A stretch of DNA of 42,591 nucleotides, taken from positions 1 to 42,591 of IMG/VR virus record IMGVR_UViG_3300037222_000058, one strand, 5' to 3'. This DNA comes from a virus. A program made the translations under genes and the position numbers. The notes under the pieces were generated by a model. The model saw only the letters and a program-made list of their open reading frames with translations, searched no databases and was not told where the DNA came from. This document shows positions 2,728 through 35,289 of the stretch, in pieces (the stretch's first letter is position 1; each line of letters starts with the position of its first letter).

Positions 2728-3018
2728 ATGGCACAGATCCACAACGTAGAGGTAACCAAGACGAAACGGTACATCACGGACCCTGCGAAAGGGCTCACGC
2801 TCGTACACGACGATCACATTCAGAAGGGCAGCGCCACCGCTATCAACTACGGTAACGAGACGTATGAGATCGATGCAGATGGTTCTTTTGATGTGTCGGA
2901 TGAGGCTGCAGCGTTCCTATGCAAACAGCCCGGCTGGTACGAGGGGCCTAACCCCTTCCCTCCTGAGGTTGAGGCTGCCCCTACACGTAAACCCTCGAAG
3001 GCTAAAGCCGCAGCCTAA
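2728..3018 (+). CDS. Small head protein of unknown function
   Basis: A 96-residue protein with a clear site (TAGGAGG, 8 bp before the ATG). It has a compact, mixed alpha/beta-looking body and a short Pro/Lys/Ala tail. It sits between the capsid and head-tail connector genes, where head decoration or small connector genes are common. No family was recognised. Confidence 0.7.
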   Translation: MAQIHNVEVTKTKRYITDPAKGLTLVHDDHIQKGSATAINYGNETYEIDADGSFDVSDEAAAFLCKQPGWYEGPNPFPPEVEAAPTRKPSKAKAAA

Positions 3019-3024
3019 ACCGCC

Positions 3025-4008
3025 GTGCCTGCCTTCGTCCCTGAAACGTTCTCCGAACCTGTAGTCTGTCCTGATACAGCTTCACTTTTCCGGAGAGCCC
3101 CATACATCTCGCCCGCCGAGTACCAGCAGACGCCGACTGCTGTCGGTATCAAAAACCTGGTACCCGGCGGGACGGAACCAGAACAGCTCGCCTCACTCGC
3201 AGCCGTTATCTCGCGCGCCAGCGATTGGGTGGACACGATCTGCTTCCACCGCGCGGACGGGACGCTGGCAGCGAGCCCGTCCACGGAGTCCGGCTGGGTG
3301 AGACCGAAGGATGACGACACGCTGCAGCTGATCTGTAACTACAAACCGATCCTCGAGGTGGATGGACTAGCAATAGGAACCCCCGGTCAGCTGTCTAACA
3401 TCGGAGACCAGGCGGCTCAAACTCTCTCGATCCAGGGCACGATAATCCAGCTGCCTGGGAACGTAAGCCCGCGTGGTGCGACGAGTTCCATCTACCCTAG
3501 CTACACCACCGTGCGTGGGAAGGTGTACGCCGTATGGGTGTACGTCAGCGGCTACCCTCACACCGCACTAGCTAAAGCTGCTAAAGCGAAAGACTCGACG
3601 CTCGAAGTGACGCCGTCCATTCCTGATGGCTCTAATCTATACGGGGTCTACCCAGGGACACAGCTCACGATCCACGACGGCGCTAACACGGAGGTCATCG
3701 TGGTGGCGTCCGTAGCGGGCTTGACGCTCAACCTAGCCGCCCCCCTCGTGTACGCTCACACGCTCCCCGCGGCCCCTAACACGACCCGAGTGACCGCGAT
3801 ACCGTGGATCGTGGAGCAGGCAACAATCTCTCTCGTATCCAACTTGATCAAGATGCGCGGCACGCGCGCGCTGGTGATTCCCAGCTCGCCAGCGAAGGCA
3901 GCGAACCCACCCAAACAGTCAAGCGGGCAGGCTGGCGCCCAGAACGATTACGACGCTGCTGTCAAAATGCTTGAGCCGTTCACCTCCGTTTATATGCGGT
4001 CGACATGA
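3025..4008 (+). CDS. Head-tail connector with inserted beta-domain
   Basis: A 327-residue protein starting at GTG 3025; no good ribosome site is visible, so coupling to the preceding stop at 3018 is likely. The N-terminal part (ISPAEYQQTPTAVGIKNLVP, then ASLAAVISRASDWVDTI) and the C-terminal helix (EQATISLVSNLIKMRG) fit the helical gp6-type connectors that cap the portal. Residues about 182-255 (STLEV...IHDGANTEVIVV...LTLNLAAPL..AH) are an inserted beta-domain resembling the repeats in the tail tube protein at 4575. Function rests on context and pattern. Confidence 0.65.
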   Translation: MPAFVPETFSEPVVCPDTASLFRRAPYISPAEYQQTPTAVGIKNLVPGGTEPEQLASLAAVISRASDWVDTICFHRADGTLAASPSTESGWVRPKDDDTLQLICNYKPILEVDGLAIGTPGQLSNIGDQAAQTLSIQGTIIQLPGNVSPRGATSSIYPSYTTVRGKVYAVWVYVSGYPHTALAKAAKAKDSTLEVTPSIPDGSNLYGVYPGTQLTIHDGANTEVIVVASVAGLTLNLAAPLVYAHTLPAAPNTTRVTAIPWIVEQATISLVSNLIKMRGTRALVIPSSPAKAANPPKQSSGQAGAQNDYDAAVKMLEPFTSVYMRST

Positions 4009-20499: not shown

Positions 20500-20814
20500 C
20501 GACTTCTACTTCACATCGTTACGATAATCGCGGCCGCACTCCCGCAGCACCTCTCTCGACACTTCGAGGTCAGCTCAACCTGCTACGCGCAGGGAGGCAC
20601 CACAGCCAGCGGCCAACAGACCCGACCCGGTGAGGTTGCGAACAACTTCCTCAAGCTCGGTACGTGGATCACGCTCGACCGCCCGGTCTTCGGTCGGCGC
20701 CGCTACCAGGTGCTCGACCACATTGGCTACGGCTCGGAACTCGACATCTTCAACGAATCGGAAGCTGCGTGCATCAGGTACGGCCGGCGTAGGATCGGTT
20801 TCCGTGTCGGCTGA
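20500..20814 (+). CDS. Hypothetical protein, start codon unresolved
   Basis: The frame is open from before 20377 to the stop at 20812-20814, and the last 60 residues look like a real compact protein (LKLGTWITLDRPVFGRRRYQ, then a Gly turn and beta pattern ending RRRIGFRVG). No ATG, GTG or TTG lies in frame between the previous stop and this part; the only canonical start is a TTG at 20377, deep inside the previous gene. The left coordinate is only the first codon after that gene. The end overlaps the helicase start. Confidence 0.4.
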   Translation, partial: RLLLHIVTIIAAALPQHLSRHFEVSSTCYAQGGTTASGQQTRPGEVANNFLKLGTWITLDRPVFGRRRYQVLDHIGYGSELDIFNESEAACIRYGRRRIGFRVG

Positions 20815-22161
20815 TCAGCTCATGGAGCATCAGGTTGAGGGGGTGAAGTTCCTTCAGGCTCATTCGAGAGCAGCGCTCTTCGATGAGCCTGGCTAGTTGG
20901 TCTCGGTAAGAGCGCGCAGGCGCTGCTCGCCGCGGTCGAGCCGATCCTAGTCGTGGCGCCAGCGATGGTTATCGACGGAGGCGTCTGGGACGATGAGATC
21001 GCCCGCTGGCGACCAGACGCCGACGTCACACAGGTCGCCTACAGTAGGCTATCTGAGCGCGAGAAGACCGCCAAGGGGGGGTCGCGGTCCACTGGACGCC
21101 TGAAGCCAGCATACGCCCGCCCCTGGGGCACAGTGATCCTCGATGAGGCCCACTACGTCAAGGGCCGCAAGACAAACTGGACGCTCGCGGCGAAGCAGCT
21201 CCGTGCCGAGCGCATGTTCCTGCTCACCGGCACACCGCTTACAAATTGGGCGCACGAGGCGTTCGTGCTGCTGCAGCTGCTGTGCCCTGAGGACGCGAAG
21301 CCCGGCAAGAGGCTCGGAAGCTACTGGCGCTGGGCCAAAGAGTGGTTCGAGATCGGCGAGCAGTACGGTAAAGGAGGCGTCGTTGTCTCAGACCACGTTG
21401 TTGGTGAGTTCCGCAAGGACAAGCACTGGCAAGACTTCATCGACGCCAACTGGCAGGACCGAATGCTGCTACGCCTGCGCGAGAACTGCCTCGACCTGCC
21501 GCCGCTGACAGAACAGACGATTCTTGTCGACATGGTGCCGGCACAACGCAAGGCGTACAAGGAGCTCAAGAAAGACTTCATCACATGGCTCGACTCGGGT
21601 GAGGAGATCGCCGCGTGGTCATCGTCCGGCCTACTTGTGAAGCTAGCGCAGTGCGCCACTGGTTTGGAGGTGATCGCGCCGGGTGCGGTTGGTTCAGGGA
21701 AGCTCGACGTGCTCCAAACGCTACTTGCCGACCGGGGCCAGCCCACCCTCGTGGTGGCGCACTTTCGAAAGAGTGTTGAGGCGTGCGCGGACCGGGCTGC
21801 GGCGGCCGGTATGACTGCGGTGATCGTACACGGTGGCACGTCTAAGCGGATGCGCGCCTTGTCGGTCAGGGCCTTCCAGGACGGGAAGGTGCCGGTGCTG
21901 TGCGCGACGATCGACACGATCAGCGAGGGACTGACGCTCAACGCCGCGGACCAGGTGATCCGGGTCGAGCGTAGTTGGCGCCCTAGCCGTAACGAGCAGG
22001 TGATCCGGCGCATCCACCGGATCGGCCAGGACCGGCCGGTGACCGCGATCGATCTGGTCACACGTGGCTCCGCCGACGAGCGAGTTCTAGAGTTGCTCGC
22101 CTCTAAGACGGATCAGCAAATGAAGGCGCTGGGGATCGCGGATCTGCGAGCTATGGTGTAG
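20804..22161 (+). CDS. SNF2-family helicase, frame interrupted in Walker A
   Basis: Superfamily 2 ATPase of the small phage SNF2 type. The first part (GTG 20804 or ATG 20822) reads MEHQVEGVKFLQ...ALFDEPG and then hits TAG at 20894. The second part, in another frame, reads LGKSAQALLAAVEPILVVAP and continues through DEAH (motif II), LTGTP (III), LVVAHFRKS, VIVHGG, CATIDTISEGLTLN (V) and RRIHRIGQD (VI) to 22161. Removing 8 bases at 20891-20898 restores a perfect DEPGLGKS motif. It could be a disrupted gene, a sequence error or a translational hop. The second part alone (GTG 20953) lacks Walker A. Confidence 0.8.
20891..20901 (+). other. Possible hop site: Gly codon, TAG, landing Gly codon
   Basis: Bases read GGC TAG TT GGT. 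A glycine codon is followed at once by a stop and, two bases later, a second glycine codon in the new frame. If peptidyl-tRNA-Gly moved from GGC to GGT, the product would read DEP-G-LGKS, exactly Walker A. This is the geometry of the T4 gene 60 bypass (matched Gly codons, stop after take-off), though with a 5-base gap. The sequence is seen; the mechanism is hypothesis. Confidence 0.3.
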
Positions 22162-32313: not shown

Positions 32314-32819
32314 GACCAATCATATTCATAGACTGCGAGACGACCGGGCTTGATCCGTACACGCATGGTGTGTGGGAGGTCGCGCTGGTTCCGAACAAGC
32401 CAAATGAAGTAGGGTTCAGTCCGACGGTCTGGCAAACCCACGTAGATCTGCGGGTTGCCGACCCGACCGCATTGCGTGTTGGCGGGTTTCAGAGGCGCTA
32501 CTGCGCTTCTGAGGCGATCGATGGGGTCGTCCTAGCGGATTACCTAGCGTGGCAGCTGCGCGACGTAACGCTGGCCGGCTGCAACCCAGCCTTCGACGCC
32601 GCCTTCCTCCGCGCCCTGCTACATGAACACGGGCTCAAGCCCACCTGGCACCACCGTTTGCTTGACCTTCAGGCCATGTACGCCGGGATGACCCGCGCTG
32701 CCCACCTGTCCGGGACTGCAGACCTACCAGCACTGATAGGTATCTCGAACAGCAAACCACACACCGCACTTGGTGACGCAAGTTGGAATAAGCTCTTCTA
32801 TGATTGGTTGACCAAATGA
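32310..32819 (+). CDS. DnaQ-like 3'-5' exonuclease (DEDDh)
   Basis: A 169-residue protein with all core motifs: FIDCETTGLD (Asp/Glu of Exo I, about residues 8-10), GCNPAFDAAFL (Exo II, about 90-100) and HTALGDA (Exo III, His then Asp about 150-155). It could proofread or trim 3' ends. It lies within the nuclease group and is coupled by ATGA to the next gene. Confidence 0.88.
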   Translation: MRPIIFIDCETTGLDPYTHGVWEVALVPNKPNEVGFSPTVWQTHVDLRVADPTALRVGGFQRRYCASEAIDGVVLADYLAWQLRDVTLAGCNPAFDAAFLRALLHEHGLKPTWHHRLLDLQAMYAGMTRAAHLSGTADLPALIGISNSKPHTALGDASWNKLFYDWLTK

Positions 32820-34762
32820 GCGTTCTCGATGTAGTTGCAGCACGGGAAGCCGCTATCAAGCAGCCTGTAACTTCAGCACACAGCACCACACACGTTGTAT
32901 CTTATTCGGAGCTTGATTCCATACGCCAGTGCCGGCTGAAGGCGCACCTGGCCTACAAGGAGCGCTGGCAGCCCGAGACCGTCAGCGCTGCCCTGAGCCG
33001 CGGCAAGCTCTACCACGCGGTCCTAGAGGCCCACTACCGCACCCAGGCGACGACGCTTGATGGGAGTGGGGTAGAGCAGACCGTCGACCCGTGGGACGTG
33101 CTCAACGCAGCCAAGGATTGCGAGGAGACAGATACCGTCCGATGGATCTACGAAGGCTACCTCGAGCGATACGGCAAGGACACGCAGTGGGAGGTACTGC
33201 AGGTCGAGCAGCGCGTCGAGGAGTGGCTGACGCTGCCTAATGGCCGGCGCTCAACGTTCAAGCTGAAGGGGTTCGTAGATCTGCTCGTGAGGGACCATTC
33301 AGCCGGCGGAGGACTGTGGATCGTAGACCACAAGCTAGAGCCTCTCTCCTCTGAGCTACATACACCATACGGTCTAAAGCACATGGGGGATATACAGGCT
33401 GGGGATGAGGTGCTTGGATCAGACGGAACACCGACTCGGGTCGTAAACGTGTTTCCTCAGGGTCTGCAGGAAATCTGGAACGTACACTTCGATGACGGCG
33501 CTGTCGTACCGTGCGGACCGGAGCACCTCTGGTCCGTAGGGAGAGAAGGAATGGAGTCACCTAGAACCATTTCAACTCAAAAGCTCCGAGAGAATCTCGA
33601 TGGGTCTAGCAGATACGTGTTTGTGCCGATCGGGAATCCTCTTTATCAACATACACAGAATCTCCCAATCAATCCTTACACGCTAGGAGCGTTGCTCGGG
33701 GACGGCGGGATGACACGCTCTCTCTCATTGCACACACATGAGAATGAGTGGGAGCATTTCAAACGTATGTGGCTGTGTGCTGGTGATGAGTGGGGCGCGA
33801 TCACGTTACGGAATGAGCACGGATTCAATGTTCACGTAAACGGAGGAAATACTCTTCGTGAGCTTGAGCGACTTGGGCTTCGAGGATGTAAGTTCAACTC
33901 GAAGTTTGTGCCTGAGCTGTATCTCAATGGAAACATAGAACAGCGCCTCGCGCTGCTACAAGGGCTGATGGATACAGACGGCTGCGTTTCTCAAGGGAAG
34001 TCGCGATTCGTAACTACTTCTCCAGCCTTGCGCGACGCAGTGATTCGTCTCGCGCGATCCCTTGGGGGAACGGCTCGTGAATGGTTGATACCAGACTACC
34101 AAAAGACTCAATCAACACCTGCTTGGGCTGTGTGGGTCTGGACACCTCTATGCCATTTCTTGCTACCTCGCAAGGTTGAGAAATGGCAAACAGAACGATC
34201 AATACAACAACGAAAAGGGCGCCGAGTCGTCGGGGTAGAGCCATCCGGTACTGCGGAGGCTCAATGCATTCAAGTTGAAGCCGCAGACGGGCTGTACGTG
34301 ACAGGAAGACAGGCAGTCGCGCTCACACACAACACGTGCCGCGAACTTCCCAAGAGTCGCGCCCTGGACTTCGATGACCAGATGGGACTTTACACGTTGC
34401 TGCTACGCCGTCAGGGCCTCGACATACGAGGAGCGATCTACAACGCCTGTCGCAGCTACAAACTGAAGCGTCCGATGAGCTCAGATGAACGCTTCAGTCG
34501 ATCGCTCACGACCCGCACAGACACCGAGCTGGAGGTGATGGCACAGGAGGCTCTCGCTACCTTCAAGAGCGCCTACGGGGTAGGCCAAAGGGCACCAAAA
34601 GGGGGGCACTCTAGGGGGACACTACCGCCGCGCAGCCCCGATCCTGACCGATGTGGGTGGCGTTGCCCGTTTGTTGAGCCGTGTCTTATGTCGCGCAAGG
34701 GAAGAGATATTCGGGAGCTACTAACCGAAATGGATTACTCTCAGAATCTGGTTCGTCACTGA
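32816..34762 (+). CDS. Cas4/RecB-like PD-(D/E)XK nuclease containing an intein
   Basis: A 648-residue precursor (ATG 32816, overlapping the previous stop). Without the intein it is a 315-residue nuclease. SYSELDSIRQC gives the first Cys of a possible iron-sulphur site; LKGFVDLL and LWIVDHK carry the catalytic Asp and the D-x-K motif. After the intein comes TCRELPKSRALDFDDQMGLY, then the C-terminal Cys cluster CGWRC...EPC. Four such Cys are the AddB/Cas4 arrangement. The intein splits catalytic DHK from the following Thr. The last 26 residues recur in the next gene. Confidence 0.88.
   Translation: MSVLDVVAAREAAIKQPVTSAHSTTHVVSYSELDSIRQCRLKAHLAYKERWQPETVSAALSRGKLYHAVLEAHYRTQATTLDGSGVEQTVDPWDVLNAAKDCEETDTVRWIYEGYLERYGKDTQWEVLQVEQRVEEWLTLPNGRRSTFKLKGFVDLLVRDHSAGGGLWIVDHKLEPLSSELHTPYGLKHMGDIQAGDEVLGSDGTPTRVVNVFPQGLQEIWNVHFDDGAVVPCGPEHLWSVGREGMESPRTISTQKLRENLDGSSRYVFVPIGNPLYQHTQNLPINPYTLGALLGDGGMTRSLSLHTHENEWEHFKRMWLCAGDEWGAITLRNEHGFNVHVNGGNTLRELERLGLRGCKFNSKFVPELYLNGNIEQRLALLQGLMDTDGCVSQGKSRFVTTSPALRDAVIRLARSLGGTAREWLIPDYQKTQSTPAWAVWVWTPLCHFLLPRKVEKWQTERSIQQRKGRRVVGVEPSGTAEAQCIQVEAADGLYVTGRQAVALTHNTCRELPKSRALDFDDQMGLYTLLLRRQGLDIRGAIYNACRSYKLKRPMSSDERFSRSLTTRTDTELEVMAQEALATFKSAYGVGQRAPKGGHSRGTLPPRSPDPDRCGWRCPFVEPCLMSRKGRDIRELLTEMDYSQNLVRH
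33335..34333 (+). mobile_element. Class 3-like intein with LAGLIDADG endonuclease
   Basis: 333 residues inserted between Lys of VDHK and Thr. The start (LEPLSSELHTPYGLKHMGDI) aligns without gaps to typical intein block A but has Leu at position 1 in place of Cys/Ser. Block B has EHLWSV (Trp), block F has QCIQVEAADGLYVTG (Cys) and block G has ALTHN followed by Thr. This Trp-Cys-Thr set is the mark of class 3 inteins, which do not need a position-1 nucleophile. The centre carries both LAGLIDADG helices (LGALLGDGG and LLQGLMDTDG), so homing is likely intact. Confidence 0.85.
34682..34762 (+). repeat. Nuclease C-terminal coding segment, copy 1 (copy 2 at 35209-35289)
   Basis: Both 27-codon segments start at a Cys-Leu-Met-Ser-Arg-Lys-Gly string and end Arg-His-stop. 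18 of 26 residues are identical, with many synonymous differences, so they are old homologues and not a fresh duplication. Copy 2 is fused in frame to the HNH gene. Confidence 0.85.
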
Positions 34763-35289
34763 TGATCGCAGTCGCACAACCGTACTGTAGGAAGGGGCAT
34801 CTATTTACTCCAGAGAACACCTACGTACGCCCTGACAGCGGAACAAGGCGCTGTCGCATATGTATGAGAGAGTACCTAAAAACACACCATCCCACACGAC
34901 AGAAATCTTCGATGATTCGGCTTAGGAAAGAAGCGTTTGAGGCTTACGGTGGATGTTGTGTTTGCTGTGGAATAGACGACATCACAGTCTTGCAATTGGA
35001 CCACATTCACGATGATGGATCAGCACATAGACAAGCGATCGGGTGGGGTACCGGAAGAGGCGCAGGAGGACAATCCTCCGCTAGCGGGTCGACTACGTAT
35101 CGTTGGCTTCGGCAGCGGAATTGGCCGACAGGTATAGTTCAAATCCTCTGCGCTAACTGTCACGTCAGCAAGACTCGTGGTGTGCCTTGTGTGTGGCATG
35201 AGGAGTCCTGTTTGATGAGCCGGAAGGGACGAGACATCCGCACCCTTTTGTCCGAGACAGGTTTCACTCAACAGCTGCAAAGGCACTAA
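34762..35289 (+). CDS. HNH endonuclease with displaced nuclease C-terminus
   Basis: A 175-residue protein; ATG 34762 overlaps the nuclease stop (TGATG). A zinc ribbon opens it (CRKGHLFTPENTYVRP, then RRCRICMREYL), followed by an HNH core: CCVCCG, LQLDHIHDDG and ILCANCHVSKTRG. The last 26 residues (CLMSRKGRDIRTLLSE...RH) do not belong to an HNH protein; they are a diverged copy of the end of the Cas4-like nuclease. The gene probably entered by homing. It is a sister of the HNH gene at 36953. Confidence 0.85.
   Translation: MIAVAQPYCRKGHLFTPENTYVRPDSGTRRCRICMREYLKTHHPTRQKSSMIRLRKEAFEAYGGCCVCCGIDDITVLQLDHIHDDGSAHRQAIGWGTGRGAGGQSSASGSTTYRWLRQRNWPTGIVQILCANCHVSKTRGVPCVWHEESCLMSRKGRDIRTLLSETGFTQQLQRH

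Follow-up and report, generated by a model that had tools for sequence, protein, structure and literature searches.

A phage SNF2 helicase gene interrupted within Walker A is probably decoded by programmed translational bypassing

The viral record IMGVR_UViG_3300037222_000058 (42,591 nucleotides, analysed at its full length and referred to below as the window) encodes just one SNF2 helicase, and a stop codon splits this gene inside its ATP-binding motif (Walker A, or P-loop). We confirmed that the break is real. Comparisons with related genes make it probable that the helicase is produced by programmed translational bypassing, with ribosomes skipping about 5 bases. Programmed bypassing in bacteria and phages rests almost wholly on T4 gene 60, which to our knowledge is the only well-proven phage example of such hopping.

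The break in the helicase frame and its relatives

At 20882-20913, the window reads GAT GAG CCT GGC TAG TT GGT CTC GGT AAG AGC, with the codons and the 5-base gap that an earlier note on this DNA had described. The upstream frame starts at GTG 20804 or ATG 20822 and its translation ends in MEHQVEGVKFLQAHSRAALFDEPG at the TAG; the downstream frame runs from GGT 20899 to TAG 22161 without interruption. The downstream product matches SNF2-rel_dom (PF00176, E = 4e-22) and Helicase_C (PF00271, E = 1e-15) and contains the DEAH, TGTP, and V-VI motifs, as expected for a SNF2-family (SF2) DNA helicase; the earlier note had described the rest of the gene as intact. As in other bypassed genes, the two out-of-frame parts together make up one conserved protein, and the Walker A motif DE[MP]GLGK[ST] lies in a single polypeptide only if they are joined.

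Table 1. Features of the split helicase gene in the window
Feature	Position	Strand	Basis
Upstream coding part, ends ...RAALFDEPG	20804..20893	+	Matches N-termini of intact L067, L069, L070
5' stem-loop in mRNA	20854..20892	+	-25.6 kcal/mol, z -4.2
Hairpin lower helix, 11 bp	20854-20864/20882-20892	+	Folding
Hairpin 1x1 mismatch	20865/20881	+	Folding
Hairpin upper helix, 6 bp	20866-20871/20875-20880	+	Folding
Hairpin loop AGC	20872-20874	+	Folding
Putative take-off codon GGC (L002 GGT, L151 GGC)	20891..20893	+	Inferred role
Stop TAG directly 3' of take-off codon	20894..20896	+	Sequence
Putative bypassed gap TAGTT, 5 nt	20894..20898	+	Same 5 bases in L002
Putative landing codon GGT, would re-pair with the same Gly-tRNA	20899..20901	+	Inferred role
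Downstream coding part LGKSAQALL..., SNF2 motor domains	20902..22161	+	Frame and Pfam

We identified relatives by protein search of IMG/VR, whose metagenomic records are fragments. The closest helicases (L003 and L164, 82-83% identical) start after the P-loop and lie outside the P-loop comparison. Among relatives with a readable P-loop, the broken lineages are few: the window and two other contigs, L002 and L004. DEPGLGKS is intact in L067 (75% identical), L069 (66%), L070 (65%), and more distant helicases. (L170 is also intact, with an odd Walker A at ~380-420, DEPGCGKC, in which Cys replaces Ser/Thr.) Relative to the intact genes, the interruption in the window amounts to 8 extra bases, the size given in the earlier note. 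Judged from these sequences, the insert is the derived state, because close relatives are uninterrupted. The earlier note had named uninterrupted relatives as a finding that would count against a hop. We did find them, but, like the uninterrupted relatives of T4 gene 60, they are evidence that the insert arose later and leave the hop itself unrefuted; the same comparison turned up a relative that shares the break.

That relative is L002 (73% protein identity), which reads GAT GAG CCT GGT TAG TT GGT CTG GGT AAG. Its 8-base interruption is the one seen in the window, with synonymous differences on both flanks (GGC/GGT and CTC/CTG). Between the two genes, 62 of 165 fourfold-degenerate sites are identical (~38%; synonymous sites are saturated). 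Because L002 shares the interruption despite this divergence and the flanking differences, both an error and a recent co-conversion can be dismissed as its source. If neutral, the five gap bases would be identical by chance with a probability of ~0.8%, given the 38% identity at fourfold sites. Sequencing or assembly error, which the earlier note had raised, might be suspected in a metagenomic virus record, but the break recurs in an independent contig of a different data set, and two further contigs share its architecture. We consider error to be excluded in practice, its probability being negligible.

L004 (66% identity) reads GAT GAG CCG TAAG GCG GGT CTC GGT AAA. The stop is at the same place as in the window and directly follows a codon (CCG, then TAA) from which a ribosome could take off, but the insert differs: it is 7 bases long and leads into a different frame. 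The CCG and GCG codons are not matched and would pair at 2 of 3 positions.

Substitution patterns indicate that purifying selection acts on both halves of the gene, including the P-loop codons after the break. For the window versus L002, dN is 0.22 and dS is 1.67 in the downstream part, and dN is 0.11 and dS is 0.93 in the upstream 24 codons (dN/dS of ~0.12-0.13). The earlier note had also considered an insertion that kills the gene. Such a decaying pseudogene would fit with the presence of intact relatives at a similar distance (L067) and with the finding, described below, that the broken genes form no clade. However, besides the low dN/dS, the three diverged broken genes have no stops and no frameshifts over 415-423 codons and keep all of the motor motifs; one insert is conserved in two lineages; and the break is accompanied by a hairpin that is independent of coding (see below). 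Inactivation is disfavoured by these data and we view it as very unlikely.

Conservation of the 17 codons directly 3' of the break matches that in intact relatives. In the window, the downstream frame has no start codon from the in-frame TGA (20884-20886) until GTG 20953, and L002 similarly lacks ATG, GTG, or TTG from the in-frame TGA to GTG 3052; in both genes, this GTG is past the Walker A lysine. The conserved stretch LGKSAQAL...AAVEPI thus precedes any start codon. Because the codons after the break are conserved with no reachable start codon, they are apparently translated and used, which would require joining them to the upstream frame. This bears on the alternative that a short N-terminal peptide and the helicase body are made separately, by termination and reinitiation near the stop, and assemble in trans. 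In L004, an ATG that belongs to the downstream frame overlaps the break (ATG AGC CGT AAG GCG GGT CTC...), and restart at this ATG is a real alternative to a hop in that gene; in L151, an unrelated helicase described below, a CTG overlaps the TGA. But in the window and L002 the first start lies beyond codons that are conserved, and two polypeptides would leave unexplained both the matched glycine codons and the exact family motif that is formed by joining. Overall, separate synthesis seems unlikely.

Some other recoding near GGC, such as slippage by -1 or +2, would yield DEPGLVGLGKS. As the earlier note had calculated, a -1 slip adds three residues (LVG). From 20887 on, the -1 frame remains open, and GLVGLGKS would still satisfy the generic Walker A consensus (the classical GxxxxGKS). 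On the other hand, there is no slippery heptamer, the three added residues are unlike intact relatives, and Gly-tRNA on GGC is unable to re-pair with the -1 codon UGG or the +2 codon CUA. Because these overlapping codons cannot re-pair, a hop of 8 nt is the sole shift among those we examined that gives both good re-pairing and the family motif. We therefore regard a slip as improbable, about as much so as decay of the gene.

A hairpin before the stop and an independent case

Folding revealed a strong stem-loop directly 5' of the stop in the window, L002, and L004, which was missing from the earlier note. A 5' stem-loop near the take-off site is a feature of bypassing; here, its 3' arm ends on the first or second base of the stop-adjacent codon. 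We spotted the hairpin post hoc and then tested it against coding-aware controls. We computed z scores for the 45 nt up to and including the take-off codon: they are -4.7, -5.2, -3.1, and -6.0 in the four broken genes (these three and L151), as compared to a mean of -0.3 (sd 1.2) across 66 intact P-loops. Among synonymous recodings of the broken genes, 0/3000 (window), 5/3000, 7/3000, and 0/3000 were equally stable, as compared to 1565/3000 for the intact L067, 409/3000 for L069, and 468/3000 for L070. Intact relatives have no counterpart of the hairpin. The stability of the hairpin is not explained by coding.

The three related genes also agree in structure. When the window, L002, and L004 are aligned, 87% of cells are paired, versus 22-49% if the arms are slid. 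Two pairs change on both sides in step (A-U/C-G and C-G/G-U/U-G), and with three sequences the covariation statistic is modest (41 of 500 shuffles reach the observed value). Synonymous identity within the trio is 0.68-0.71 in the upstream 24 codons versus 0.41-0.46 downstream; either constraint on the RNA or common descent of the upstream segment would raise it in this way.

We scanned for further cases with a pattern that did not include the hairpin: DE-x-G, a stop, two bases, and then codons for G-[LF]-G-K. Four contigs matched, namely L002, L151, L149, and L150; we rejected the last two as chance matches outside helicases. L151 is a different, unrelated SNF2 helicase, on a 103.8-kb contig, that reads GAT GAG ATG GGC TGA CC GGC TTG GGT AAA. 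Its break lies at the same codons as in the window and has the same hop geometry, and relatives of this helicase are intact. The same arrangement of hairpin is present as well (GCCCAUCUCACGCC...GGCGAUGAGAUGGGC, directly followed by UGA). This hairpin is independent support, because the pattern that found L151 left the hairpin out. The glycine codons on the two sides of the gap are matched in the window (GGC/GGT), L002 (GGT/GGT), and L151 (GGC/GGC), and in each of them a stop directly follows the first codon (TAG, TAG, and TGA).

Within the L151 helicase, a short distance upstream of the P-loop, lies a gene for a DUF559 nuclease (Pfam E = 3e-11). On the minus strand of that contig (7918-6965), the N-terminal frame of the helicase stays open for ~170 codons through the overlapping DUF559 gene and runs into GVLFGDEMG, with 0 stops versus 6 in the other alternative frame. 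This may be a chance or a functional overlap.

Other searches did not extend the set. An exact 14-mer scan of viral contigs gave 60 matches and no further helicase relatives, a search of a genome collection gave no useful relative, and megablast against known phages gave no match. Scanning with the pattern of the hairpin arms recovered L002 and L004 again, along with three chance matches. Gordonia and Arthrobacter phages in which two features lie under one helicase match were rejected, as they have intact helicases with overlapping neighbours and not splits.

The proposed hop and known bypassing systems

The hop over 5 bases that the earlier note had proposed gains support from the matched glycine codons in the window, L002, and L151 and from the hairpin that each of the four broken genes has at its take-off codon. 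We infer the take-off, sliding, and landing steps, and the efficiency of the hop. The ribosome would translate up to GGC (20891) and stall with UAG in the A site, and the peptidyl-tRNA-Gly would release GGC. Behind the ribosome, the mRNA just upstream would refold into the strong hairpin. Its upper 6-bp helix is located 11-16 nt 5' of the take-off codon, approximately where the mRNA exits the ribosome, and the lower 11 bp could presumably close only as the ribosome moves forward. Refolding would push the ribosome 8 nt forward, the same tRNA would re-pair with GGT (20899), and decoding would resume at CTC to give DEPGLGKS, with residues neither gained nor lost. In L004, a hop from CCG to GCG (2 of 3 pairs) would give DEP-GLGKS.

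We looked for other signals near the breaks. No Shine-Dalgarno sequence is evident before the landing site, the window has no tRNA genes that might act as suppressors, and the regions around the breaks contain neither Rfam families nor group I introns. Folding gave no significant downstream stem-loop in the window. L002 does have a strong one from near the landing codon (2989-3069; z = -2.8, 0/200 shuffles), which resembles the 3' stem-loop of T4; it is significant in L002 only and so is not conserved. The nascent chain is ~24-30 residues long at take-off, as compared to 46 in T4; it is conserved, but it is also helicase motif sequence.

In T4 gene 60, a GGA codon with UAG as the next codon is the site of take-off, and landing is on a matched GGA; a 5' stem-loop that is partly formed outside the exit channel completes its pairing behind the moving ribosome and so acts as a "motor" (PMC5009743, PMC11194080). 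The window resembles T4 in having UAG right after a glycine take-off codon, a matched glycine landing codon, and a 5' stem-loop of the kind thought to pull the mRNA and push the ribosome. As in T4, a derived insert lies in a phage DNA-metabolism gene that is uninterrupted in relatives. In contrast to T4, the gap is 5 nt instead of 50, and the gene is a SNF2 helicase, interrupted inside Walker A and in several phage lineages. Furthermore, the hairpin in the window is made up of coding sequence alone, with the take-off codon at its 3' end, and this single hairpin covers the positions of both T4 loops. The window has no take-off stem-loop in the gap, as 5 nt is too short for one; a take-off stem-loop that includes gap sequence is T4's own signal and not a feature of bypassing as a class.

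Three other systems involve shorter hops or inserts. Synthetic "stop-hops" and hops of +5 or +6 in E. coli reporters (Weiss et al. 1987, cited in PMC5009743) similarly have matched codons around a stop and skip a few bases, but they are laboratory constructs, while the helicase gene occurs naturally, is conserved, and has a hairpin of its own. The byp elements of Magnusiomyces capitatus mitochondria are likewise short, mobile-looking inserts in coding genes that ribosomes skip; however, they are mitochondrial and reported to be context-independent with relaxed decoding, whereas the window has an upstream hairpin and a bacterial-type stop. The terminase of Streptomyces phage Hau3 is another short proposed bypass, in an actinophage, but it is tied to a rare UUA codon instead of a stop, and the review text that we consulted describes no such hairpin.

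Origin of the insert and neighbouring nucleases

In a tree of the downstream proteins, monophyly of the broken trio was rejected (AU test, p = 0.019), and monophyly of the window and L002 was not (p = 0.147). Together with the alike upstream segments, the lack of a clade suggests either that the 5' segment has moved laterally or that losses have occurred repeatedly.

The T4 bypass adjoins a nuclease gene, the homing endonuclease mobA (PMC3014915), and its 50-nt insert has been proposed to protect against cleavage (PMC5009743). Nuclease genes are also nearby in L004 and L151. In L004, an Endonuclease VII family gene (2588-2917) is directly upstream of the helicase. A nuclease-like gene with weak HNH/endonuclease VII matches is beside the intact helicase of L067 (2784-3221), and neither the window nor L002 has a nuclease gene beside the helicase. 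The spot between a phosphoesterase-like gene and the helicase holds differing nuclease-like genes in L004 and L067, and it is a hotspot for free-standing homing-type nucleases.

Elsewhere in the window, an ORF at 32804-34762 (652 amino acids) encodes a PD-(D/E)XK nuclease that also matches a LAGLIDADG domain and is possibly an intein-bearing Cas4/RecB-like nuclease. Its end is overlapped by an HNH endonuclease ORF (34681-35289; PHROG 2255 and others).

By analogy with T4, a mobile bypass cassette is plausible here. More tentatively, and with some doubt, the hairpin, stop, and 5-nt gap might together form a small mobile "hop" element that has inserted time and again into the Walker A codons of SNF2 helicases in phages. 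Homing endonucleases encoded nearby would probably spread or protect such elements, which might represent a recurring class of short natural programmed bypasses and not a single case such as T4 gene 60. In the text of a 2016 review, shorter natural counterparts of T4 gene 60 with matched codons are described as long assumed to exist, and thus as expected and not as established (PMC5009743).

The window, L002, L004, and L151 form a compact natural series, with gaps of 4-5 nt, varied stops, and one hairpin that ends on the take-off codon. This series would allow the minimal needs for leaving and re-finding a reading frame to be tested, including whether hairpin refolding can be the lone driver. 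If the bypass is as we propose, then some phage genes in metagenomes are only seemingly "broken".
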